Part shown: positions 34,443 through 62,105 of the stretch, piece by piece
Position numbering within the stretch: the stretch's first letter is position 1
Layout: each line of letters opens with the position of its first letter
NCBI GenBank assembly: GCA_019637295.1
Contig: JAHBVX010000002.1
Span: 1-64,000, forward strand
Origin: Polyangiaceae bacterium
Lineage (GTDB): Bacteria; Myxococcota_A; Polyangia; Polyangiales; Polyangiaceae
Reading direction: 5' to 3'
DNA length: 64,000 nucleotides
Position numbers and translations under genes: made by a program
Notes under the pieces: model-generated
Told to the model about the DNA's origin: nothing
What the model saw: the letters and a program-made list of their open reading frames with translations, nothing else
Database searches by the model: none

Positions 34443-35834
34443 TCAGTCGTCTTCGATGCGTGACCCGCCGCGCAGGTCGTGACGCTGCAGCAATCGATAT
34501 AGATACATACGGTCCATCTTCGCGCGACGAGCTGCCTTGCTGACGTTGCCCGAGGCCCACTCGAGCAGCGCCTTGAGGTAGCCGCGCTCGAACTCCGCCA
34601 CCACGTCCTCCTTCGCGACGCGAAAGGGCACGCTCAGATCCACCCCCGGCGACGGCTGCGCAGCTCCCGCCGTGGGCGGCGGCAGCGACGACTGACGCTG
34701 TGACGCGGGCGCCACCTGGTCGAGCACCACCGTCCGTTCGACGAAGTTGCGCAGCTCCCGTACGTTCCCCGGCCAGTCGTGGGCTCGCATGTCGGCGAGC
34801 ACGTCCGGCGTGAACAGATGCGCCGAGTCCTCGGCGTTCAACGAGCCGAGCATCACGCGGATCAGCAGCTCGAGGTCGTCGAGGCGCTCGCGGAGCGGCG
34901 GCATGCGCACCGTGACCACGCTCAGGCGAAAGAACAGGTCTTCCCGGAAGCGACCACGGTTGACCTCACGCTCCAGACTCCGATTGGTCGCCGCGATCAC
35001 GCGCACGTCGATCTTGCGCGGATCGTTCTCGCCTGTCCTGCGGATCTCGCGCGCCTCGAGGGCTCGCAGCAGCTTGGGCTGCATCTCGAGGGGCATCTCG
35101 CCGACCTCGTCCAGGAAGATGGTCCCGCCGCTCGCGGCCTCGAAAGCGCCGATGCGCAGGCGGTCCGCGCCGGTGAAGGCGCCCTTGGCGTGACCGAACA
35201 GCTCGCTCTCGATCAGGCTCGGAGAGATCGCGCTGCAGTCCACGATCATGAAGGGCCTGCCCGCGCGATGGCCCCGACGCGCGATCTCCGTCGCAGCGAG
35301 CTCCTTGCCCGTGCCGCTCTCTCCTTGCAGGAGCACGGTGGAGTCGCTCTGCGCCACGCGATCGAGCACGCCGAACATGCGGCGCATGGCCATGGACTCG
35401 CCGTGCAGCTCGCCGAAGCTGGACCACGTCACCAGCTCCGCCAGCGCCTCGGAGCCGAGGTCCCGCGCGCACAGCACCGAGTCCCCGAGCGAGATGCGAC
35501 ACGACGGCCGCGGGAGATCGGCGTCCCGCACGCGCACGCCGTCCACCAGCGTGCCGTTGAGGGAGCCGGTGTCGGTCAGCACCCATCCGCTGTCACCGCG
35601 TCGGAGGCTACAATGGAAGCGCGAGACCATCGCGTCGTCGATCACGACGTCGTTGCTCGGGTGCGAGCCGATGCGGATGGTGTCACCCTCGAGCACGACC
35701 GAGCGGTCCTCGGCTCGGCCCGCGACGCGCTCGAGCTGCAGGCCCAGCCGCGGGATGGCGACGGCCCGCGCGAGCTGCCGCACCGTGTGTAGGTGGGCGC
35801 CGCTCAGGGTCGGTCGGTCCTCGGCTTCCGTCAT
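34443..35834 (-). CDS. FHA-domain sigma-54-dependent activator
   Basis: This 463-residue transcription activator has, in order, an FHA domain at about 45-125 ([35 protein letters not shown]), a sigma-54 AAA+ domain at about 145-375 ([34 protein letters not shown]) and a Fis-type helix-turn-helix at the end ([20 protein letters not shown]). FHA domains read phosphothreonine, so this activator is probably controlled by a Ser/Thr kinase and not a histidine kinase, a pattern well known in myxobacteria. It stands alone; the gene at 36043 is divergent. Confidence 0.94.
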
Positions 35835-35983
35835 GCCGCCCAAAGCCTAACCCGGCCGAGGCCGGGGCCACGATCCGAGCCGGAGCGGAGAGGCTGCTGC
35901 TGCCTGTTGCCCTCAGGTTGCTCCCTGCAGGCAGCGGCGCCGAGCCCGCAGGCCGGCGCGGTCGCGGCTTGGATTTCAGTAAT

Positions 35984-36042: not shown

Positions 36043-36975
36043 ATGAAGTCGGTGCTCGCCTCCCTGCTGGCCGTGGTCCTCGGACTCTCGGGCGATCCGG
36101 CGGCCCCAGCGCCTGCGCCGGAGACCCCGGCCGTCGACGAGGTGGTGGCCCTCGCCGAGGTACCGGCGCGTGAGGCCAGCGCCGAGACCGCCGCTGCGCC
36201 CGTGCTCCCCGCCGGACCCGCGCTGCCGTACCGGAAGGTCCTGCGGCCCCATCGACTCGTCCTCGTTCCCGGGGACTGCGCGACGGCCGCGGGTCCGCTC
36301 GACGTGATGATCCATTTCCACGGCGCGCCGGAGCACGTGGAGGCGGCCCTGGCGCGCTCGGGGCTGCGCGTCGCGCTCGCGATCGTGAACCTGGGCGCGG
36401 GCAGCGGACGCTACGAGAGCGCCTTCACGCAAGACGGGTCCCTTGCGCGCTGGCTCACCGGGATGGAGACCCTCCTGAAGCAAGAGTGTGGTGGCCGAGC
36501 GCGGGGTCGCGTCGCGCTGTCGAGCTGGAGCGCGGGCTACGGCGCCATCTACCGCATCCTGGCCAACGAGCAAGACGCGAAGCTGGTCGACGCGGTGCTG
36601 CTCGCCGATGGGCTGCACGCCGGCTACGAGCCCGGCAGCAGCACCCGCGTCAACGCGCTGCAGATGGCCCCCTTCACCCGCTTCGCCGAGCGGGCCGCTC
36701 GCGGCGACGCGATCATGGCGCTCACCCACACCAACATCCGGCCCCCGCGCTACGCGAGCTCCGCCGCCACCGCCGACCACCTGCTCGCCGCCACGGGAAC
36801 GGCCCGCACGGTCGAGCAGAGCGCAGGACCCCGCACGATGCGGCTCGAGAGTCGCGCGGACGCGGAGGGCCTGCACGTGCGCGGCTTCGCCGGAACCGGC
36901 CCCGACGAGCACTGCGACCACCTGTACGCGCTCGACGCGCTGACCTGGCAGTTCTTGGGTGCGGACTGGCGCTGA
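36043..36975 (+). CDS. Exported alpha/beta-hydrolase-like protein
   Basis: This 310-residue protein starts with a signal peptide (KSVLASLLAVVLGLSG) and an Ala/Pro/Glu linker. The fold signs are PLDVMIHFHGAPEHVEAAL, RVALSSWSAGYGAIYRIL (a nucleophile elbow with SxSxG in place of GxSxG), AVLLADGLHAGYEPG, and a late HCDHLYALDAL that may supply the catalytic His. It resembles secreted esterase-like proteins. The substrate is unknown. It precedes the PFK-2/FBPase-2 gene by 56 bases in the same direction. Confidence 0.75.
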   Translation: MKSVLASLLAVVLGLSGDPAAPAPAPETPAVDEVVALAEVPAREASAETAAAPVLPAGPALPYRKVLRPHRLVLVPGDCATAAGPLDVMIHFHGAPEHVEAALARSGLRVALAIVNLGAGSGRYESAFTQDGSLARWLTGMETLLKQECGGRARGRVALSSWSAGYGAIYRILANEQDAKLVDAVLLADGLHAGYEPGSSTRVNALQMAPFTRFAERAARGDAIMALTHTNIRPPRYASSAATADHLLAATGTARTVEQSAGPRTMRLESRADAEGLHVRGFAGTGPDEHCDHLYALDALTWQFLGADWR

Positions 36976-37031
36976 CGAGAGACGCATGACCGCGAGTTTG
37001 ACGCCGCCGCCTTGCCTGGCGACAAGGGGGC

Positions 37032-38315
37032 GTGATCCTACAAGGGCCGGAGTTCAAGAAGCACGCGCTGGTGCTGGTGGGGTTGCCCGCCCGGGGCAAG
37101 ACCTTCGTGGCGCGCAAGATCGCCCGCTACCTGTCCTGGCTCGGCTACCGCACGCGCACGTTCAACGTCGGTGAGTACCGCCGCTCCATCGCCGGCGCGC
37201 GGCAGCCCGCCGCCTTCTTCGATCCGGGCAACGCCGAGCAGCGCGAGCTGCGTGAGCGCATCGCCATGCGCGCACTGGACGACCTCGTCAGCTTCCTGGT
37301 GGATGGCGGCGACGTCGCCATCTACGACGCGACCAACACCGAGCGCAGCCGACGCGCGGCCATCTACGAGCGTTGCCAGGCGCTGGACATCAAGGTCGTG
37401 TTCGTCGAGTCGATCTGCGAGGACGAAGCGGTCGTCGAGGCCAACGTGCGCGAGAACAAGGCGCGCTCCCCGGACTACCAGGGAGTCAGCCCGGACGAGG
37501 CCGTGCGGGACTTCCGCGAGCGCATCGCCTACTACGCCGAGACTTACGAGCCGGTCGACGACGAGGACAAGAGCTACGTCAAGCTGATCGACGTCGGCCG
37601 CAAGGTGGTCGTCAATCGCATGCAGGGGTACCTGGGTGCGCGGCTCATGTTCTTCTTGATGAACGTCCACCCGGCGCGCCGCAAGATCTGGCTCACGCGC
37701 CACGGTGAGAGCCGCTTCAACCCCGAGCGACGGATTGGCGGTGATCCGGAGCTGACCGAACGTGGGCGCGAGTACAGCGAGAGCCTCGCCGCCTTCTTCG
37801 GCTCCCGCGCGCCCGAGCACATGGTGATTTGGACCAGCACGCTGAGGCGCGCGCTGCAGACGGCAGAGCCCCTCGGCCCATCCGCCGTCGCCCGCCGCAA
37901 TCTCGACGAGATCGACGCCGGCATCTGCGACAGCCTGAGCTACGAGGAGATCCACGAGCGCCTACCGGAGGAGTTTCGCGCTCGCTCGCTGGACAAGTTC
38001 CGCTATCGCTACCCGCGCGGCGAGTCGTACATCGACGTCATCAACCGGCTCGAGCCGGTGATCGTGGATCTGGAGCGACAGCGCAGCCCCGTGTTGGTCG
38101 TCTCTCACAACGCGGTCATCCGCGCCCTGTACGCCTACCTGATGGGCCGCCCGCAAGAGGAGACGCCGCACGTACCGGTGCCGCTTCACACGGTCATCGA
38201 GCTGACCCCGACGGCCTACGGCTACGAGGAGCGGCGCTACGAGCTCGACCCCCAGCTCGACAGCGAGTACGCGCTCTCGCGCTCCGTCGGGCCCCCGCCC
38301 GTCAGGCGCTCGTGA
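37032..38315 (+). CDS. 6-phosphofructo-2-kinase/fructose-2,6-bisphosphatase (eukaryote-type bifunctional enzyme)
   Basis: This 427-residue protein makes and degrades fructose 2,6-bisphosphate in eukaryotes. The kinase half (about 1-215) has the P-loop LVGLPARGKTFVARK (17-24), FNVGEYRR, IYDATNTERSRR, VVFVESICED, ARSPDYQGVSPDEAV and YVKLIDVGRKVVVNR. The bisphosphatase half (about 218-400) has LTRHGESRFN with the catalytic His at 224, RIGGDPELTERG, NLDEIDAGICDSLSYEEI, FRYRYPRGESYIDVINRLEP, VVSHNAVIRALYAYLM with the second His, and LHTVIELTPTAYG. Both active sites look complete. There is no obvious regulatory N-terminal extension. It starts at GTG 37032 after a purine-rich stretch. The bacterial role is unknown. 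Confidence 0.93.
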   Translation: MILQGPEFKKHALVLVGLPARGKTFVARKIARYLSWLGYRTRTFNVGEYRRSIAGARQPAAFFDPGNAEQRELRERIAMRALDDLVSFLVDGGDVAIYDATNTERSRRAAIYERCQALDIKVVFVESICEDEAVVEANVRENKARSPDYQGVSPDEAVRDFRERIAYYAETYEPVDDEDKSYVKLIDVGRKVVVNRMQGYLGARLMFFLMNVHPARRKIWLTRHGESRFNPERRIGGDPELTERGREYSESLAAFFGSRAPEHMVIWTSTLRRALQTAEPLGPSAVARRNLDEIDAGICDSLSYEEIHERLPEEFRARSLDKFRYRYPRGESYIDVINRLEPVIVDLERQRSPVLVVSHNAVIRALYAYLMGRPQEETPHVPVPLHTVIELTPTAYGYEERRYELDPQLDSEYALSRSVGPPPVRRS

Positions 38316-38319
38316 AGCG

Positions 38320-39546
38320 CTAGTACCACACCGCGCCGATCGACGCGGTCGTCATCCAGTACAGATCGTCGCTGACTCGGGGCAGCACCAGGACAGCGAG
38401 GCGGAGCTGCGAGTTGGCCTGCGCGGTGGTGTCGAGCTTGATGATGTCGAGGCTCAGCTCGAAGCCGCCGTAGTTGAAATCGCCCTGGATCTCGTCCTGG
38501 TTCTTGCCTACCTCGAGCGAGGCGATGACCGCGGGCGAGTAGGCCAGACCGAACGCGAGTCCACGCCACAGCGTGGCGGTGCGATGCTCCCCGAACGCGA
38601 AGTGGACCCCGAGCTGCAGCGGAAAGACGCCGTAGACATAGGCCTTGTTGGCGTACGCGGTGTCCCGGGAGGTGACCTGATTGTTCTCCAGACGGTAGTC
38701 GAAGCCCTTGGGCGGGCGGACGTACAGCCCGGCCAACGTGGCCCCGACTCCGACCCGGAACGCAGCGAAGGACGAGCTGCCAGCCGCCGGCTCGGGCAGG
38801 GGCAACATCATCATGGACAGCTGCACGCCGAGCCCAGCGCCTACCCCGAAGGTGTCGGCTCTGGACACCTCCAGCTGCGACGTCACCGGGTTGGTGTCAG
38901 CGAAGCCCGCGCCGGGAACGTACAGCCCGACGAGCGCCGCCTGCACGCCGTAGCTGAAGCGGGGACCACCACGCTCCTGCCACGCGGAACCGCTCCCGGC
39001 GATGTCCGGGGCGGCGCGGCCGGCCGGCTCGGCGCCGGTGAGCACGCCCACCTGCATGGGCTCGCCCGCGGGCTGCTTGGGCGCCGGCGCAGCGGGCTTG
39101 GGGCCGCCGAGCGCATCGAGCAGCTCGCGCGCCGCACCCGCAGCAGCGTCGGCGCTGGCGACGTCGCGGGAGGTGACGCCGGACGAGGTCACGAGCAGCA
39201 CCCGAACCCCCGCGCTGGTGCGCACGATGCGCACGAGCGCGCGCGCCCCGAGCGCGGCGCGGAGCTTCTCGAGTCGCTCGGGCTCGGAGCTGACCACGCC
39301 TGCGTCGAGCGCCCCGGACTCGGTGGCCTTGCCGGTCACGTCCGCCTTCGTGTCGGGCTCGAGCCCGCGCTTGCGGCCGTGCTCGTAGACGCTCGCGCGC
39401 ACGCGGGCGTTCTCGGTCTCGTCCTGCTCTGCGTCCGCCACGACGACGATGTTCGAGTCCGCTCCGGCCGCGCGGGCCGCGCCGCCCCCGAGCATGGCGA
39501 CGATCACCGCGCCGAGCAGGCAAATCCGGGGCATCCGTACTGACAT
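38320..39546 (-). CDS. Predicted outer-membrane protein
   Basis: This 408-residue protein has a signal peptide (ICLLGAVIVAMLGGGAARA). A periplasmic alpha/beta region follows (ENARVRASVYEHGRKRG, LRAALGARALVRIVRTSA) and then, from about residue 190, beta-strand-like segments (FSYGVQAALVGLYVPGAGF, FRVGVGATLAGLYVRP, VFPLQLGVHFAFGE, LAFGLAYSPAVIASLEVGK). The C-terminus (TTASIGAVWY) ends in aromatics as outer-membrane barrels do. Function is unknown. The start may instead be 39555; ATG 39546 has AGG just upstream. It is convergent to the PFK-2/FBPase-2 gene, with four bases between the stops. Confidence 0.72.
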   Translation of the reverse strand: MSVRMPRICLLGAVIVAMLGGGAARAAGADSNIVVVADAEQDETENARVRASVYEHGRKRGLEPDTKADVTGKATESGALDAGVVSSEPERLEKLRAALGARALVRIVRTSAGVRVLLVTSSGVTSRDVASADAAAGAARELLDALGGPKPAAPAPKQPAGEPMQVGVLTGAEPAGRAAPDIAGSGSAWQERGGPRFSYGVQAALVGLYVPGAGFADTNPVTSQLEVSRADTFGVGAGLGVQLSMMMLPLPEPAAGSSSFAAFRVGVGATLAGLYVRPPKGFDYRLENNQVTSRDTAYANKAYVYGVFPLQLGVHFAFGEHRTATLWRGLAFGLAYSPAVIASLEVGKNQDEIQGDFNYGGFELSLDIIKLDTTAQANSQLRLAVLVLPRVSDDLYWMTTASIGAVWY

Positions 39547-39633
39547 GGACCTCATTTTACCGGACTGGGGCCGGGCGCGTCGTTTTTCCGCGAGGGTGGC
39601 GCCACTGACCTCCGCTATCCTGCCCGGCGAGCC

Positions 39634-41226
39634 ATGCCGCCTTCCTCCGGGCCAAAACCCCGACTGTCGACCATCAGGCCGCCGAGCCCACCGACCGAGC
39701 GCCTAGAGAAGCGCGAGTTCAAGCGCCTGCAGCAAGGCCTGGTCGAGCGCTGGCTGGCGTTGCACGAGATCGAGTCCGTGCCCCGCGACGTGGTCGTCGT
39801 CCCGTCCCTCTCGCTGGACGGCTTTCAGCTCGGCAACATCCCCGGCATCACTCACTACGAAGAGCGCATGCTCTTCACCCTTGGTCTGCTCAGGCATCCG
39901 CGCGCTCGACTCGTGTACGTGACGTCGCAGCCGCTGCATCCCGCGATACTCGACTACTACCTGGCGCTGATCGGCGGCATCCCCACCGCCCACGCTCGAG
40001 AGCGCCTCACGCTGGTGTCCTGCTACGACACCTCGCCGCGTGCGCTCACCGAGAAGGTACTCGAGCGCCCGCGTCTCGTGCAGCGCATCCGTGACGCCAT
40101 CGACCAGAGCCGCGCGCACATGACCGTGTTCACGGTGAGCGACAAAGAGCGGAGCCTCGCCGTCAGACTGGGCATACCGCTGTACGGCGTCGATCCTGAC
40201 CTGCTCTCGCTCGGGACCAAGAGCGGGTCGCGCAAGGTCTTCCGCAAGGTCGGCATCCCGCTGGCCAACGGCGCCGAGGATCTCGCGAGCGAGCGGGAGA
40301 TCGCCGAGGCCGTGGCGAACATCTGGGAAGCGGAGCCCTCCCTGCGTCGCGCGGTGGTCAAGCTCGACCAGGGGTTCTCGGGCGAAGGCAACGCCATCTT
40401 GCCGCTCGGTCGTCGCCTGGCCCGGGTGGCGCCGAGCAAGGCTCCGCACCGCGCCCGCGTGGACGCCGTGCTCGAAGCCCTGCCCGGGATGCGCTTCATG
40501 GCGCCGAACGAGACCTATGTCCGCTTCAAGGCGCAGTTCGAGGACATCGGTGGCGTGGTGGAGGCGTTCCTGGAAGGCGAGGTGAAGCGCAGCCCCAGCG
40601 CCCAGCTCCGCATCAACCCGCGCGGCGAGCTGCAAGCCATGAGCACTCACGACCAGCTGCTCGGCGGCGTCGACGGGCAGACCTACCTGGGCTGCAAATT
40701 CCCCGCCGATTTCGGCTATCGCATGCAGATCCAGAACGACGCGCTGGCCGTGGGCAAGGAGCTGAAGCGACGCGGTTGCGTCGGGCGCATCGCCGTCGAC
40801 TTCGTCACGGTGCAGAATCCAGACGGCTCGTGGAGCCGCTTCGCGATCGAGATCAACCTGAGGATGACCGGCACGACACACCCGATCATGACGCTCAAGC
40901 TGCTGAACGACGGCGACTACGACGCCAAGCTCGGCTTGTACGTCACGCGTCGCGGCGAGCCGCGCTACTACGTCTCCACGGACAACCTGATCAAGCCCCA
41001 CTACCAGGGCCTGCTGCCCGACGACGTGCTCGACATCGCCGCAGTCCACGAGCTGCACTACCAGCCCTGGAAGGAGACCGGGGTGGTGTTCCACCTGCTC
41101 GGCGCGGTAAGCCAGTTCGGCAAGATCGGGCTCACCGCCATCGGCTCGAGCCCGGACGAGGCGGACGCCTTCTACGAGCGCGCCCAGGCCGCCCTGGACG
41201 CAGAGACAGTCGACGAGCAGCCGTGA
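39634..41226 (+). CDS. PGM1-like ATP-grasp peptide ligase
   Basis: This 530-residue protein has a pre-ATP-grasp region (VPRDVVVVPSLSLDGFQLG, THYEERMLFTLGLLRHPRAR), a central ATP-grasp fold (SRKVFRKVGIPLANGAEDL; RRAVVKLDQGFSGEGNA; VEAFLEGEVKRSPSAQLR; metal-binding FAIEINLRMTGTTHP) and a C-terminal module (GLLPDDVLDIAAVHELHYQP, GAVSQFGKIGLTAIGSSPDE). This order is that of the PGM1 family, named for the peptide ligase of pheganomycin biosynthesis, which joins carboxylates to amines at ATP cost. No signal peptide is present. The next gene, a deacylase of the aspartoacylase family, starts in a four-base overlap (GTGA), so the two are made together and probably act on the same or related molecules. 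The substrate cannot be read from sequence. Confidence 0.86.
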   Translation: MPPSSGPKPRLSTIRPPSPPTERLEKREFKRLQQGLVERWLALHEIESVPRDVVVVPSLSLDGFQLGNIPGITHYEERMLFTLGLLRHPRARLVYVTSQPLHPAILDYYLALIGGIPTAHARERLTLVSCYDTSPRALTEKVLERPRLVQRIRDAIDQSRAHMTVFTVSDKERSLAVRLGIPLYGVDPDLLSLGTKSGSRKVFRKVGIPLANGAEDLASEREIAEAVANIWEAEPSLRRAVVKLDQGFSGEGNAILPLGRRLARVAPSKAPHRARVDAVLEALPGMRFMAPNETYVRFKAQFEDIGGVVEAFLEGEVKRSPSAQLRINPRGELQAMSTHDQLLGGVDGQTYLGCKFPADFGYRMQIQNDALAVGKELKRRGCVGRIAVDFVTVQNPDGSWSRFAIEINLRMTGTTHPIMTLKLLNDGDYDAKLGLYVTRRGEPRYYVSTDNLIKPHYQGLLPDDVLDIAAVHELHYQPWKETGVVFHLLGAVSQFGKIGLTAIGSSPDEADAFYERAQAALDAETVDEQP

Positions 41227-42104
41227 TCCGCCCGCACTCGAGCATCCCGCAGGTCTGGGAGATCAGCCCCGATGGCAGCTTCCGCGGCCCCTTCGTGGGC
41301 ATCCTGGGGGCGCTGCACGGCAACGAGATCGCCGGCTTGCGCGCGCTCGAGAGATGTCGGTCCGACGCGGAAGCGTTCGCCCAGCGCATGCGCCAGGGAA
41401 CGCTCGTGCTGATCCACGGCAACCCGCGCGCCACCGCGGAGGGTCGGCGCCACTCGCGCGGCGGCGTCGACATCAACCGGCTGTTCGCCTACCGCTGGGT
41501 CGAGGAGCTCGCCCCGGAGGCCTGGAGCTACGAGCATCACCGGGCCCTCGAGCTGCGACCGCTCATCACGGGCCTCGACGCCATGCTCGATCTGCACTCC
41601 GCAAGCCAACCCACCGTGCCCTTTGCCATCTGCGACGGGCGTCCAGAGGGGATCGCGCTCTCGCGCAAGACCGGCTGCCGTGTGACGCACGGCTGGGACG
41701 GCCCGGGCATGTTGATGCAGGACGTGAGCATCGGCGCGCTGGTGTCGCGAGGCCGCCCGGCCATCTCCGTCGAGTGCGGGCAGCACGACGCTCCAGCGTC
41801 GATCGAGGTGGCGGAGCGCGTCCTCGAGCGCTTCTTGGGGGGGCTCGGGCTCACCGACCACGAGGTGGAGGACTCGACGGGCCCCAGCTTCCGGCTGTTC
41901 GGGCGGGTCGTGAAGCCGACCCTCGACTTTACCTTGGCCCGCGACTTCGCGAGCTTCGATCGCCTCGCCCCGGGCCAGCTGCTCGGCTCCGGAGACGGCG
42001 TCTCCATCCACGCTGACCGCGAGGCGTACCTGCTGCTGCCCACGCCCTCGGCGCAGCGCGGCGACGACATCGTCTACCTCGCTCACGCCGTGCTGCACTC
42101 CTGA
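41223..42104 (+). CDS. Aspartoacylase/succinylglutamate desuccinylase-family zinc hydrolase
   Basis: This 293-residue enzyme has a zinc site typical of the AspA/AstE branch of M14 metallohydrolases: GILGALHGNEIAG (His32, Glu35), VLIHGNPRA, RRHSRGGVDINRLF and MLDLHSAS (His125). A C-terminal beta domain is also present (LAPGQLLGSGDGVSIHADRE). The family removes acyl groups from amino acids or cuts amide bonds of small conjugates. The start GTG 41223 overlaps the stop of the ATP-grasp ligase. A longer frame from 40776 lies inside the ligase gene and is rejected. The ligase/hydrolase pairing suggests opposing steps of making and removing an amide conjugate. Confidence 0.9.
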   Translation: MIRPHSSIPQVWEISPDGSFRGPFVGILGALHGNEIAGLRALERCRSDAEAFAQRMRQGTLVLIHGNPRATAEGRRHSRGGVDINRLFAYRWVEELAPEAWSYEHHRALELRPLITGLDAMLDLHSASQPTVPFAICDGRPEGIALSRKTGCRVTHGWDGPGMLMQDVSIGALVSRGRPAISVECGQHDAPASIEVAERVLERFLGGLGLTDHEVEDSTGPSFRLFGRVVKPTLDFTLARDFASFDRLAPGQLLGSGDGVSIHADREAYLLLPTPSAQRGDDIVYLAHAVLHS

Positions 42105-55911: not shown

Positions 55912-57014
55912 GGCGAGGCGCGCTGCTCGGGCTCTTCGGCTCGGTCTGGCTGACAGCGACCAGCGCTCCCGCCGACGGAGGACCGGACGCCGCGGACGGG
56001 CGGGATGGCGGCGCGGACGCAGCCACCGCGCGCTCCGACACCTGCGTGGAGCACTGGCCCTCGAGTCGGCCTCGGCCGAAGCTCACGGAGAGCCTGCCCG
56101 CCCAGGGCACGTCGGGCCACGCCTTGCGCTTCGAGATCGTCGTCGAACACGGGCTGGGTGAGTCGGTCATGCCCGGCGGCATGAAGCTGCGCGAGGGCTC
56201 CTCCGAGGCGATGGCGTTGGAGCGGCAGTTCTTCGTGGTACCCGATCCGGAGGGGGGAGCCGCACCCCGCATCACGACGGAGGCTACGGGGCAGCTCGCC
56301 AAGACCACGCTCGAGCTGTTCCTGGTGCCGCTGCCGCCGAAGCCGGGGCGGCAGGAGCTGGTGCTGCCGCCGTTGCCGATCTCCATCGCGCGCGCGAGCG
56401 GTGAGCTCTTGACGCTGTGTACGAGCTCACATCGAGTCACCATCGAAGATCCGATCGCGAGCACCCCCGACGCAAAGCCCAAGCACAACCCCGACCCTCG
56501 CCGGCAGGAGGAGGTCTGGACCAGCGCGCGGAACATCACCCTGTCGGCGCTCGCCGCCTTGCTGGTCGGACTCGTGCTCGCCTGGCTGCTGGGCCGCTGG
56601 CTGAAGCGGCCCAAGAAGGCGCCGCCCGCCGCCCCTCCCCGACCGCCCTGGGAGGTGGCGCTGGAAGATCTGCGCGATCTGCAGCATCAGGGCCTCGTGG
56701 AGCGCGAGCTGTTCGTCGATCACTTCGAGCGCGTCAGCTTCGTCTTGCGACGCTACTGCGGGGATCGCTACGGGTTCGACGGCCTGGAGTGCACCACTCG
56801 AGAGATGCTCGGTGTGCTGCGCCGCATCGTCCCGCCGATCCCGGTTCTGGATGAAATCGAGACCTTCTTGCGCGAAGCAGATCTGGTGAAGTTCGCGCGG
56901 CTGACGCCCTCCGCGGACGAGTGCAACACGGCCCTCGCGCGGGCCAAGACCATCGTGGAGAGCACGGTGCCGCCGGCCCCCGTCGCGTCCGCTGCCGCCG
57001 GAGGTGAAGCGTGA
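55908..57014 (+). CDS. Bat-operon membrane protein (DUF4381-like)
   Basis: This 368-residue protein has a signal peptide, an Asp/Ala-rich linker (GGPDAADGRDGGADA), and a periplasmic beta domain (RFEIVVEHGLGESVMPGG, TTLELFLVPLPPKPGRQEL). One membrane helix follows near 215 (LSALAALLVGLVLAWLLGRW), then a cytoplasmic helical domain (WEVALEDLRDLQHQGLVERE, FERVSFVLRRYCGDRYGF, EADLVKFARLTPSADE). The position and layout match the accessory protein usually found between DUF58 and BatA. It starts at TTG inside the previous stop. Confidence 0.85.
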   Translation: MRRGALLGLFGSVWLTATSAPADGGPDAADGRDGGADAATARSDTCVEHWPSSRPRPKLTESLPAQGTSGHALRFEIVVEHGLGESVMPGGMKLREGSSEAMALERQFFVVPDPEGGAAPRITTEATGQLAKTTLELFLVPLPPKPGRQELVLPPLPISIARASGELLTLCTSSHRVTIEDPIASTPDAKPKHNPDPRRQEEVWTSARNITLSALAALLVGLVLAWLLGRWLKRPKKAPPAAPPRPPWEVALEDLRDLQHQGLVERELFVDHFERVSFVLRRYCGDRYGFDGLECTTREMLGVLRRIVPPIPVLDEIETFLREADLVKFARLTPSADECNTALARAKTIVESTVPPAPVASAAAGGEA

Positions 57015-58183
57015 AACCGGCGGTGGCGGCACGCCGGCGACTGTGGCTGCGGCTCGGCATCTTGTTGCTGGCCACGGTCGTCAGCGCGCTCGTGGCGCTG
57101 GCCTATCCGGGCTTGGCCCGCGGGGACGAGCTGCTCGCGGCGAGCTGGCAGCAGCCCTGGGCGCTGCTCGGCCTGCTGCTCGTTCCGGTGCTGTTCTGGC
57201 GCGGCACGTTCGGGGAGGACCGGCGCATGCCCCGGCTCAAGCTGGGCACGGTGGCGCCGCTGCTGAGCGGTCCGGTGGGCGCGCGCGTGTGGCTGGCGGA
57301 CGTCCCTGGCGTGGTGCGCAGCATCGGGTTCGCGCTCGCGGTGCTGGCCCTCGCACGACCCGTCAACACGCTGAGGCCCCAGGTGACCGAGGAGCAGGGC
57401 ATCGACATGGTGTTGGTGCTCGACTTGTCGGGCAGCATGCAGGCGGCCATCGACGACCTCCCCAAGGACCTGGCGCGCTACGTCCCGCGGCGGGATCCGC
57501 GCATCCGGCCCACCCGCCTGGACGCCGCCAAGGCGGTGATTCGCGATTTCGTCGCGCGCCGAAAGACCGATCGCATCGGGGTGGTCGTATTCGGCAAGGA
57601 TGCCTACGTGCTGTCCCCGCCTACCCTGGACTATCAGCTGCTCGATGGGCTGGTCTCGCGCATGGAGCTCAAGTTGATCGACGGCAGCGCGACCGCCATC
57701 GGGGACGCGGTCGGGGTCGCGGTCGCCCGGTTGAGGCGCTCGTCCGCGACGAGCAAGGCCGTCATCTTGCTGACGGATGGCGACAACAACGCTGGCGCCA
57801 TCGCTCCGGAGTATGCCGCCCACTTGGCCAACGTCGTCGGCGCCAAGCTGTTCACGATCCAGATCGGGGACGGCGACATCGCGCAGGTCCAAGACGGCTT
57901 CGATCTGTTCGGCCAACCGCGCTACCAGACGGTGCCGTTCCCGGTGAACCCCGCGTTGCTCGAGAAGCTCGCCAAGCAGACCGGCGGCGAGGCCTACGTC
58001 ACCAGCGACGCGCGCTCGCTCCAGGCCAGCTTTCACAGCGTGCTCGACAGCCTGGAGAAGACCCGCTTCGCCGCCAACATCACGAACTACGAAGACCTGT
58101 ACCGCTACCTGCTGCTGCCGGGGGTGCTCTTGCTGGCGCTCGACGCGCTGCTGCGCGCCTTGCTCTTGCGGAGGTTTCCATGA
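57011..58183 (+). CDS. batA: BatA-like VWA-domain membrane protein
   Basis: This 390-residue protein has two N-terminal membrane segments (LRLGILLLATVVSALVALAY and WALLGLLLVPVLFWRG), a VWA domain with a metal-ion-dependent adhesion site (MVLVLDLSGSMQAAIDDL; KAVILLTDGDNNAGAIAPEY) and a last membrane helix (YLLLPGVLLLALDALLRAL). MoxR and VWA partners form a conserved module whose exact role is unsettled; in Bacteroides the operon affects aerotolerance. It overlaps both neighbours by four bases. Confidence 0.94.
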   Translation: MKPAVAARRRLWLRLGILLLATVVSALVALAYPGLARGDELLAASWQQPWALLGLLLVPVLFWRGTFGEDRRMPRLKLGTVAPLLSGPVGARVWLADVPGVVRSIGFALAVLALARPVNTLRPQVTEEQGIDMVLVLDLSGSMQAAIDDLPKDLARYVPRRDPRIRPTRLDAAKAVIRDFVARRKTDRIGVVVFGKDAYVLSPPTLDYQLLDGLVSRMELKLIDGSATAIGDAVGVAVARLRRSSATSKAVILLTDGDNNAGAIAPEYAAHLANVVGAKLFTIQIGDGDIAQVQDGFDLFGQPRYQTVPFPVNPALLEKLAKQTGGEAYVTSDARSLQASFHSVLDSLEKTRFAANITNYEDLYRYLLLPGVLLLALDALLRALLLRRFP

Positions 58184-60228
58184 AGCTCGCGGCTCCCTGG
58201 TGGCTGTTCGGTTCGCTGCTCGCGGTGGTCGTCGGCGCGCTGCTCGTGGCAGGCGGGGTCTTGCTGGTGCGCTCGGTGCGACGCTTCGGCGACGAAGAGC
58301 GCGTGGACACCCTCGTGACCTCCAAGGCCGGCGGACGCCGTGCGCTCAAGGGGGCGCTGCTGGTGCTCGGTGTCGCCGCCAGCTTCGTGGCGCTCGCGGG
58401 GCCGCAGTATGGCCGAGGTACACGCCTCATCCCCGCGACGAACCTCGATGTGGTCGTGGTGCTCGACTACTCCAAGAGCATGTATGCGCGCGACATCGCG
58501 CCGTCGCGCATCGAGCGCGCCAAGAGCGAGGTGGGACGGCTGATCGCGGATCTGCCCGGCGCCCGCTTCGGCGCCGTGGCGTTCGCCGGCGAGCCGATCG
58601 CCTTTCCGTTGACCAGCGACGGCGCCGCCATCGCTCAGTTCTTCCGTCAGCTCGCGCCGAACGACATGCCCGTCGGCGGCACCGCCATCGCGCGAGCCCT
58701 GCAGGCGGCCCAGGAGCTACTGTCGCGGGATCCCCTGACCAAGAACCACCGCACGGTGATCGTGCTGGTGACGGACGGCGAAGACCTGGAGGGGGATCCG
58801 GTGAGCACGGCGCGCTCGATCGCGTCCCAGGGGACCACCATCAACGTCGTACAGATCGGCGGGCGCACGCCGGAGGCCATCCCGGACGTGGACGAATCCG
58901 GCGAGGTGATCGGCTGGCGCACGGACGACGACGGGAGACCGCTGACCACCCAGCTCAGCGCGGACGGTGAGGCGCAGCTAGGCAAGATCGCGGAGGTCGG
59001 CCGTGGGTACGTGGTGCAGAGCGAGCGCGGCACGACCGGCATCCGTGAGGTCACCGCCCGCATGCGTAAGCTGATGACCGAGGAGCTCTCGGAGAAGGTG
59101 GAGACCGTCTACGCGGACGTGTACTTCTACCCATTGGGCTTGGCGGTCGTGCTGTTGCTCGTGGAGTCGTTCGTGGGTCAGGCCCCGCGCCGCCCGAGGC
59201 CGCCTCAGCTGCCGCCGCCTCCGCCGCGGCGCGCTCGCGCGCGGGGCGCTGGCAGCCGCTCGCTGCGGGCGGTGGGGCTCGGCGCGCTCGTGGCGTCGTT
59301 CGGCTCCGGGGCGGGCTGCGAGACCGCGGATCGGGTGTTCACCCGCAACGCGCCGCAGGTGGACGAGGCCATCGTTGCCCTCGACGCCGGGGACGCGAGC
59401 GCGGCGTTCTCGCTGCTCTCGGACTACCTCGGCACCGGAGCCTGCGCCCAGGGCAGCATCGGCACGCCGGACAGCATCAAGCAGCGGTCGAACGCGGGGT
59501 TCGACCTGGGGCTGGCGCTGTTCGCCATCGGGGAGAGCTTCGGAAGGCGCTTCGGCGACGAGGAAGAGGGGCCCGAGCAGGTCAGCCCCGAGGAGGAGGC
59601 CACGCTCGCGTCTCGCTCACACGAGGTGGAGTGCGCGCTGCGCATCGTCCTCGCGATCGCCGGCGACCGCGCGCAGCCCATCGATCTGCGAGCCCGCGCG
59701 CACTACTTGGCCGGCAATCTGGAGTTTCTTCGCCGCGACTACGAGGCGGCGGTCAAGAGCTACGACAAGGCGCTGGCGCTCATTCCGGGCTTGCCCGAGG
59801 ACGCCGGGGACGGCATCGGGCGGGACGCCGCCTGGAACCGAGCCATCGCCCTGCGACGCATCGAAGAGCAGGAGAACCAGCGCGACGCCGGACAAGACGC
59901 GCAGCCCGACTCGCCACCCGACTCACCACCAGACGCGCCGCCGGAGGGCGGCGACGGCGGCGGCCCACCGGACGGTGGAGACGACGGCGGCGGAGGTGGT
60001 GACGGTGGCGGCGCGGACGGCGGGCGGGACGCCGGAGACCAGGACGGCGGCGGCTCGCAAGATCAGCAGCCCCAGCAGCAGGAGCCGCAGGCGCAACGGC
60101 CCGAGCCCAACGTCAATCAGGACGAGCGGATGCTCGATCGCCTCGAGCGAGCGCCGACCCTGCAGCAAGAGGCAGCCAAGAACCGGGCGCTGCGCGGCAG
60201 CCCGGTCCGCGCGATGGAGGACAAGTGA
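58180..60228 (+). CDS. batB: BatB-BatC fusion: VWA domain plus TPR domain
   Basis: The ATG at 58180 overlaps the batA stop (ATGA). The 682-residue protein has two parts. Residues 1-335 are BatB-like: membrane segments, MIDAS LDVVVVLDYSKSMYARDIA, and VIVLVTDGEDLEG. A last helix (YPLGLAVVLLLVESFVGQ) is followed by a Pro/Arg linker. The second half is BatC-like: EAIVALDAGDASAAFSLLSD, HYLAGNLEFLRRDYEAAVKSY with TPR units, and an Asp/Gly/Pro/Gln-rich tail. In many genomes BatB and BatC are separate proteins. The same frame is open back to 57004, but that part is antisense in sense to batA coding and is rejected. Confidence 0.9.
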   Translation: MKLAAPWWLFGSLLAVVVGALLVAGGVLLVRSVRRFGDEERVDTLVTSKAGGRRALKGALLVLGVAASFVALAGPQYGRGTRLIPATNLDVVVVLDYSKSMYARDIAPSRIERAKSEVGRLIADLPGARFGAVAFAGEPIAFPLTSDGAAIAQFFRQLAPNDMPVGGTAIARALQAAQELLSRDPLTKNHRTVIVLVTDGEDLEGDPVSTARSIASQGTTINVVQIGGRTPEAIPDVDESGEVIGWRTDDDGRPLTTQLSADGEAQLGKIAEVGRGYVVQSERGTTGIREVTARMRKLMTEELSEKVETVYADVYFYPLGLAVVLLLVESFVGQAPRRPRPPQLPPPPPRRARARGAGSRSLRAVGLGALVASFGSGAGCETADRVFTRNAPQVDEAIVALDAGDASAAFSLLSDYLGTGACAQGSIGTPDSIKQRSNAGFDLGLALFAIGESFGRRFGDEEEGPEQVSPEEEATLASRSHEVECALRIVLAIAGDRAQPIDLRARAHYLAGNLEFLRRDYEAAVKSYDKALALIPGLPEDAGDGIGRDAAWNRAIALRRIEEQENQRDAGQDAQPDSPPDSPPDAPPEGGDGGGPPDGGDDGGGGGDGGGADGGRDAGDQDGGGSQDQQPQQQEPQAQRPEPNVNQDERMLDRLERAPTLQQEAAKNRALRGSPVRAMEDK

Positions 60229-62105
60229 GCGCGCGAGCCGTCGTGCGCTGCGCGCTCTGGGCGGCTGTCACGTCGCTGCTGGCCACCCTCGCCTGGGCCG
60301 AGCCGAGCCTGCAGACTCAAGTGTCGAGCAGGCGCCCCGGGGTGGGCGAGACGTTCACCGTAACGCTCAACGCGCTGGTCGACGGCGGCACCGAGCTGCC
60401 CATGAACGCGAGGCTGCCCGTCCCCCCGGGGCTGGTGGCCCACGGCCCGAGCATTGGCGCCCAGAGCCGCATCTCGATCGTGAACGGACAGGTCCGCGCG
60501 CGGGTCGGCATCTCGGCGACCTGGAGCATCACTGCCTCGCGACCGGGCACGTACCGAATCGGTCCGGGCAGCGTCACGGTGCAGGGCAAGCGCTACAGCG
60601 ACAACGCCGTCACCGTCGAGGTCGTGCCCGAACGGTCACCGCCGTCGCTGCAGAACCCGCTCGATCCGTTCTCGCTCTTTCCGCGGGTGCCGGGGCTCGC
60701 GCCGCCGGAGGACGACGACGCGCTGCTCGATCTGCTGCCACCGTTTCCGCCAGAGCTGCGCGTGGACGAGGCGCCAGACGCGCTGGCCTTCGTTCGCGCC
60801 GTGGTCACCCCGAAGCGCGCGGTGGTCGGCGAGCAGCTCACCCTGGCCATCTACGCCTACGGCCGGCGCGGACCGTTCCGCGAGACCTTCACCTCGGAGC
60901 CGAGCCGAGAGGCGTTCCTGGCGCACACGCTGCTCGAGAACTCCTACGCCGAGCCGCTGCATCAAGTGCCGATCGCCGGCAGCGCGTGGCACGCCAAGAA
61001 GATCCGCGAGATGGCGCTGTTCCCGATCCGCTCCGGCCAGCTGACCATCGGGGCCATGCGCATGGGCTTCGACGGTCGCGGCTACCCGTCCGAGGGGCAG
61101 CACAAGGGACTGATTCGTTACAGCCAGCCGCTGGAGGTCCTGGTCAGCGAGCCGCCCCTCGCGGGCCGGCCGGCGGGCTACACCATCGGGGACGTCGGCC
61201 GCTTCACCCTCGCCGCGACCGTGTCGCCGCGCGAGGTTCCCGCGGGCGAGTCCGTCAGCGTCGTGGCCAAGATCGAGGGCACGGGGAACGTACCGTTCGC
61301 ACTCAAGACACCGCAACAGCACGGCGTACAGTGGCTGGAGCCGAACCACTACGAGAAGCTCGACGTGCGGGGGACGAAGGTCGGCGGGCTGCGCAAGCTG
61401 ACCTACGCCGTTCGGCTCGCACAGGCTGGCGAGGTCGAGCTCGGCGAGCTCACCCTGCCGTACTACGACGCGGAGCGCGGACGCTACGAGGTGGCCCGCG
61501 CCGAGCTCGGGCGCGTGCTCGTGCGGCCGAGCTCGAACGCCGCGAGCGTCGCCGATGAACCCGAGAGCGACGCGCTGGCAGGCCTGCTGCAGGCCAGGTC
61601 GACGCTGCGCGCCGAGCCCCCCAGGCGCAGCGACCCGCTCACCGATCGCCCCTGGTTCTTGTGGCTGCTGCTGGCCGGCCCCGCGCTGGTGCTGGGGTCG
61701 CGCGGCGCCCAGGCAGGGCTGGGGCGGCTGCTGACCGCGCGCGCCGGACGCAAGAGCTCACTGGCCGCGCAGGCCCAGCGCGCCCTGGCCGCGGCGAAGC
61801 AGGCCGAGGACGCCGGCGACGCCGCCGAGGCGGCCAGTCGGGCCGAGAGCGCGCTGTGGCTCGCCATCGAACACGCCACCGGACTCAAGGCGCGGGCCCT
61901 GTTGAGGACCGAGCTACCCACGGCGCTGGGCGACCGGGGCCTCGAGCCCGAGTTGGTCGAGCAGCTGACCACGCTGCTCGCGCGGGCCGACGACGCTCGC
62001 TTCGTGGGCAGCGCGCCCCAGCAGTCCTTCGCGTCGGAGCTCCGCGCGCTGGTGGAGCGCCTCACGAGCCGCACGCCGGCCGCCGAGGAGCGGAGCGGCG
62101 AGTGA
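60225..62105 (+). CDS. batD: BatD-like protein
   Basis: This 626-residue exported membrane protein starts at GTG in the previous stop. It has a signal peptide (AAVTSLLATLAWAEPS), several Ig-like beta domains (VSSRRPGVGETFTVTLNALV, RAVVTPKRAVVGEQLTLAIY, TVSPREVPAGESVSVVAKIE), a membrane helix near 490 (FLWLLLAGPALVLGSRG) and a cytoplasmic helical tail (RALAAAKQAEDAGDAAEAAS). This is the BatD/oxygen-tolerance family layout. Confidence 0.93.
   Translation: MSARAVVRCALWAAVTSLLATLAWAEPSLQTQVSSRRPGVGETFTVTLNALVDGGTELPMNARLPVPPGLVAHGPSIGAQSRISIVNGQVRARVGISATWSITASRPGTYRIGPGSVTVQGKRYSDNAVTVEVVPERSPPSLQNPLDPFSLFPRVPGLAPPEDDDALLDLLPPFPPELRVDEAPDALAFVRAVVTPKRAVVGEQLTLAIYAYGRRGPFRETFTSEPSREAFLAHTLLENSYAEPLHQVPIAGSAWHAKKIREMALFPIRSGQLTIGAMRMGFDGRGYPSEGQHKGLIRYSQPLEVLVSEPPLAGRPAGYTIGDVGRFTLAATVSPREVPAGESVSVVAKIEGTGNVPFALKTPQQHGVQWLEPNHYEKLDVRGTKVGGLRKLTYAVRLAQAGEVELGELTLPYYDAERGRYEVARAELGRVLVRPSSNAASVADEPESDALAGLLQARSTLRAEPPRRSDPLTDRPWFLWLLLAGPALVLGSRGAQAGLGRLLTARAGRKSSLAAQAQRALAAAKQAEDAGDAAEAASRAESALWLAIEHATGLKARALLRTELPTALGDRGLEPELVEQLTTLLARADDARFVGSAPQQSFASELRALVERLTSRTPAAEERSGE

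Follow-up and report, generated by a model that had tools for sequence, protein, structure and literature searches.

Fructose 2,6-bisphosphate (F2,6BP) is usually regarded as a eukaryotic regulator that is absent from bacteria. The account given in PMC9721465, which cites the review of Rider et al. 2004, places it in almost all eukaryotes and not in bacteria, Desulfovibrio desulfuricans excepted. Animals, plants and fungi form and degrade it with one bifunctional enzyme. In the animal enzymes PFKFB1-4 a 6-phosphofructo-2-kinase (PFK-2) domain is followed in the same chain by a fructose-2,6-bisphosphatase (FBPase-2) domain, and at both ends the isoforms have regulatory extensions that bear phosphorylation sites. 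Here we describe a homologue encoded in the first 64,000 nucleotides (the window) of contig JAHBVX010000002.1 of a Polyangiaceae bacterium (Myxococcota; assembly GCA_019637295.1). From its sequence and a predicted model, we consider it likely that the gene encodes a working bifunctional PFK-2/FBPase-2 that sets cellular F2,6BP, with class I fructose-1,6-bisphosphatase (FBPase) as the likely receiver. The features of the locus are the following:

37022 to 37031, + strand: probable ribosome-binding site AAGGGGGC, AAGGGGG-like, directly 5' of the GTG start (inferred from the letters)
37032 to 38315, + strand: predicted gene for a bifunctional 6-phosphofructo-2-kinase/fructose-2,6-bisphosphatase homologue, 427 amino acids, GTG start
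37056 to 37673, + strand: 6-phosphofructo-2-kinase domain (PF01591, Pfam 6PF2K; residues 9-214, E=6e-78)
37686 to 38240, + strand: fructose-2,6-bisphosphatase domain (PF00300, Pfam His_Phos_1; residues 219-403, E=6e-41)

The two domains lie in one chain, the kinase N-terminal and the histidine phosphatase C-terminal as in the animal enzymes, and the reading frame contains neither internal stops nor frameshifts. In a phmmer search of the PDB, full-length PFKFB chains were matched at E values between 4e-118 and 1e-111, each by a single continuous alignment over about residues 13-405, leaving 12 residues before the aligned core and about 28 after it; identity to animal PFKFB is 43-47%. A chance origin of the likeness is excluded, and the original prediction of a complete eukaryote-type PFK-2/FBPase-2 is borne out, with the open reading frame exact to the nucleotide. 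Compared with PFKFB1-4 the protein is bacterial, roughly 25-30 residues shorter N-terminally and devoid of the regulatory tails, so its control would presumably be by metabolites. It is the only PF01591 copy in its own 7.65-Mb genome.

The stand-alone phosphatases CobC, PhoE, PspA and dPGM share with it the phosphatase fold and the RHG motif, but they have no kinase half, and such bacterial histidine phosphatases match its second half only (about 19-30% identity). Assignment to the CobC/PhoE/PspA type was rejected, as the protein falls below every curated NCBIfam cut-off (best 88 bits vs 163). The D. desulfuricans case, as described in PMC9721465, is likewise a bacterial one for F2,6BP, in a different phylum. 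That F2,6BP is not a standard bacterial signal, as had been remarked of this locus, agrees with the same source apart from the exception it names. PFK-2/FBPase-2 is thus a known, classical family, and the finding concerns a widespread bacterial branch of it, not a new kind of enzyme. As far as could be found this myxobacterial branch is little noticed, and the literature searches made returned no paper on a myxobacterial PFK-2.

Active sites, selection and predicted fold

We compared 27 catalytic and substrate-contacting positions by aligning the window protein to rat PFKFB4 and human PFKFB3, together with a set of 121 bacterial rows. Liver-enzyme numbers follow UniProt. The window protein equals rat PFKFB4 at 26 of the 27 positions, the lone mismatch being Gln393, which is replaced by Asn. 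In the kinase half the Walker A motif GLPARGKT (residues 17-24) and D99, T101, R107, K143, R164 and Y168 preserve the site for fructose 6-phosphate (F6P) and ATP. The corresponding liver set (Walker A, D130, T132, R138, K174, R195, Y199) is complete in the window and shows no or almost no variation across the 121 rows, with K23, D99, T101, K143 and R164 found in every one of them. In the bisphosphatase half the window keeps R223-H224-G-E, R273, E293, R318, K322, Y333, H359 and R364, and the bacterial rows are invariant at R223, H224, N230, R273, E293, R318, K322, H359 and R364; the liver catalytic set R257, H258, R307, E327 and H392 is present in 121/121. R273 (liver R307) is Arg in the bacteria and Ser in human PFKFB3. 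The sugar and phosphate contacts R352, K356, Y367, Q393 and R397 of the liver enzyme are kept in the window at four positions out of five.

The motifs RHGES (223-227), EIDAG (293-297) and SHNAVIR (358-364), named in the original prediction, occur in the expected order and with animal-like spacing. The third differs in one letter: the position after its histidine, liver 393, is Gln (HQAV) in animal PFKFB and in 101 of the 121 bacterial rows, and Asn (HNAV) in the window, the complete count for the family being Q 101, R 9, N 8, H 2 and L 1. Two outcomes that had been set beforehand as fatal to the identification can be judged at this point. Membership in a distinct nucleotide-kinase family was tested and not found, and no loss of substrate-binding residues was seen, except for this single Gln-to-Asn change.

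Both halves of the gene are under purifying selection. The nonsynonymous rate (dN) is well below the synonymous rate (dS) in each, with dN/dS of about 0.02-0.25; for the pair L032/L033, dN is 0.012 and 0.022 in the two halves vs dS of 0.49 and 0.52. The retention of both active sites argues that both activities are in use.

An AlphaFold2 model, built on an alignment of 41 sequences, was confident (pLDDT 89, pTM 0.87), and it has the two-domain PFKFB fold. When it was compared with known structures by Foldseek and VIA-align, human, bovine and rat PFKFB ranked first (TM about 0.9, root-mean-square deviation mostly 1.4-2.5 A, Z 44.8-48.5). All the full-length matches were PFKFB, while the next structures cover the phosphatase half only, stand-alone phosphatases reaching Z 21-25 there.

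On this basis, real PFK-2/FBPase-2 chemistry is quite likely. The N-terminal half would phosphorylate F6P at its 2-position, with ATP as the donor. The C-terminal half would strip that 2-phosphate by forming a phosphohistidine at H224, E293 and H359 being the remaining putative catalytic residues. The balance of the two activities would determine intracellular F2,6BP, in keeping with the bacterial F2,6BP system that the original prediction envisaged.

Distribution and origin of the family

PF01591 scored above its cut-off in 63 of the 284 Myxococcota genomes sampled (about one in five), and 289 stretches with a relative were retrieved from the genomes of 84,980 species (GTDB). Among the best 80 of these 289, the titles are nearly all of myxobacteria or Deltaproteobacteria and include the cultured Sorangium cellulosum, Polyangium and Minicystis rosea. 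In the tree, two records under the name Candidatus Sulfopaludibacter and a few under Proteobacteria (titles as recorded) group within the myxobacteria. No full-length relative was found in viral, phage and plasmid collections. The bacterial relatives that the original prediction had thought possible do exist: PFK-2/FBPase-2 is a deep and widespread Myxococcota family and not an isolated oddity. A recent import or contamination is ruled out by the uniform high GC of the window, by near relatives within its genus and its family and by the spread across many families. Open frames of 700-900 amino acids in some relatives suggested fusions with extra N-terminal domains; in the loci of family f21 that were inspected, these look like high-GC open frames upstream of a consistent start, and they are likely artefacts. 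A tie to the myxobacterial life cycle, which had also been proposed, was not sustained: there is no conserved gene neighbourhood or operon across families, no developmental gene was recognised among the neighbours, and non-carriers are common within families that have carriers.

The tree comprised 123 rows, with eukaryotes represented by vertebrate sequences only. It contains deep bacterial diversity, and the vertebrates stand on a long branch with no supported position. When the phosphatase half was rooted with other histidine phosphatases, whose branches are very long, the vertebrates fell among the bacterial rows, and bacterial monophyly was not rejected (approximately unbiased test, p-AU 0.48). 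The two halves disagree on the vertebrates: the kinase half joins them with the bacterial copies L002/L034 (SH-aLRT 99), and the phosphatase half puts them elsewhere. It is possible, if doubtful, that the Myxococcota family was acquired horizontally from a eukaryote and not passed to eukaryotes by a myxobacterium-like donor; the bacterial diversity, deep and extending over many families, is unlike a recent import, and the rooted phosphatase tree speaks for neither direction. Within the phylum, the PFK-2 of genome G120 (family f33; L028/L134) adjoins the clade of copies from the family to which the window belongs, a placement that hints at transfer within Myxococcota.

Class I FBPase as the probable receiver

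According to PMC6400660, F2,6BP is a competitive, active-site inhibitor of mammalian FBPase; a study on AMP/F2,6BP inhibition of the mammalian and bacterial enzymes is also cited there. Because of this inhibition, the genomes carrying PFK-2 were tested for class I FBPase. It was present in 58/63 carriers vs 97/221 non-carriers (Fisher 7e-13), and in 51/53 vs 67/147 when only genomes at least 90% complete were counted. The association persists at the family level (12/13 vs 22/42, p=0.010) and in a within-family permutation (p=0.03), while GlpX shows the opposite pattern (0/63 vs 48/221, 2e-6). We then used as an out-of-sample prediction 13 previously unseen genomes of families f25 and f37, which mostly lack class I FBPase. 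The prediction held: the enzyme was found in both new carriers (G287, G294) vs one of 11 new non-carriers (G288). This association, with its out-of-sample support, is new.

The host genome itself has one class I FBPase, on a contig separate from that of the PFK-2 gene, and GlpX was not found in it. The best PDB relative of this FBPase is the E. coli enzyme (2gq1 and related entries; E=1e-98), and it is a candidate receiver of F2,6BP, not a part of the PFK-2 enzyme. Given PFK-2/FBPase-2 chemistry, class I FBPase is moderately probable as the physiological target, and it is the best-supported downstream link, rather than specifically a phosphofructokinase (PFK), be it dependent on ATP or on pyrophosphate (PPi). 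F2,6BP would then compete with substrate for the active site of the host FBPase, inhibiting it and so braking gluconeogenesis when F6P is plentiful.

Several observations weigh against this reading of enzyme and target. The nearly complete carriers G120 and G045 have no class I FBPase, and GlpX is also present in the new carrier G294, a genome with 6% contamination. Part of the co-occurrence is due to shared ancestry. The neighbourhoods, being unconserved, give no pathway link, and a Gln that contacts substrate in animals is Asn in the window protein. Finally, a response to F2,6BP is not generally known for bacterial phosphofructokinases.

The host genome also encodes three full PF00365 phosphofructokinases. 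Two of them read GGDGS...PKTIDND, a type which we take to be ATP-dependent, and one reads GGDDT...PKTIDND, presumably PPi-dependent. One host enzyme (L122:1342-2577) has as its best PDB match the N-terminal half of human liver PFK-1, marginally above Bacillus PFK. F2,6BP might act on one of the three, and it could even be that a PFK, ATP- or PPi-dependent, is its main receiver in place of FBPase, the classic receivers being PFK-1 in eukaryotes and PPi-PFK in plants. PF00365 genes occur in 62/63 carriers, but they are nearly universal (270/284 genomes), so that their presence is uninformative, and carrier G112 (97% completeness) has class I FBPase and no PF00365 match; we regard this possibility as rather unlikely. 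Unlikely too, in our view, is a broader proposal, in which Myxococcota have a genuine F2,6BP loop acting on class I FBPase that predates its eukaryotic counterpart or is independent of it, and in which eukaryotes owe their PFK-2/FBPase-2 to a myxobacterium-like donor.

Alternatively, this fold and this chemistry might serve another sugar phosphate (e.g. sedoheptulose 7-phosphate or another ketose phosphate) and yield a different bisphosphate regulator. No myxobacterium is known as an F2,6BP producer, and the change at position 393, variable in the family, would suit such a shift; however, the remaining F6P- and F2,6BP-contacting positions that were checked are all retained, most of them in 121/121 rows, and carriers track a known F2,6BP-binding enzyme, which makes the proposal improbable. 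That the gene is a relic, inactive or with one function left, and either retained for some other reason or recently acquired and decaying, is very hard to credit, for although one activity is generally held to be lost in many eukaryotic isoforms (with a fungal case in PMC9721465), both active sites are invariant across many families, both halves are constrained and the window copy is intact.

Genomic context and significance

The genes flanking the PFK-2 gene, at 38320-39555 (- strand) and 36043-36975 (+ strand), have no Pfam match. An FHA-domain sigma-54 activator (34443-35843, -) lies two genes away on the upstream side and is read in the other direction. At 39634-42104 an ATP-grasp ligase (IQCH-like ATP-grasp and PGM1_C) stands immediately before a succinylglutamate desuccinylase/aspartoacylase-like gene; the pair is possibly a two-gene unit, with no relation to the PFK-2 gene. 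Farther on, a VWA/TPR protein and then a BatD-like protein (57004-62105) resemble part of a Bat (aerotolerance-type) operon.

If the preferred reading is true, with PFK-2/FBPase-2 acting on F2,6BP and class I FBPase receiving it, the F2,6BP control loop would extend to bacteria, where a conserved bifunctional enzyme co-occurs with the target of F2,6BP inhibition. The carriers include culturable organisms in which such a loop could be tested, and the family is also relevant to the question of gene exchange between eukaryotes and myxobacteria. The finding suggests that some bacteria use a sugar signal that was supposed to be eukaryotic.
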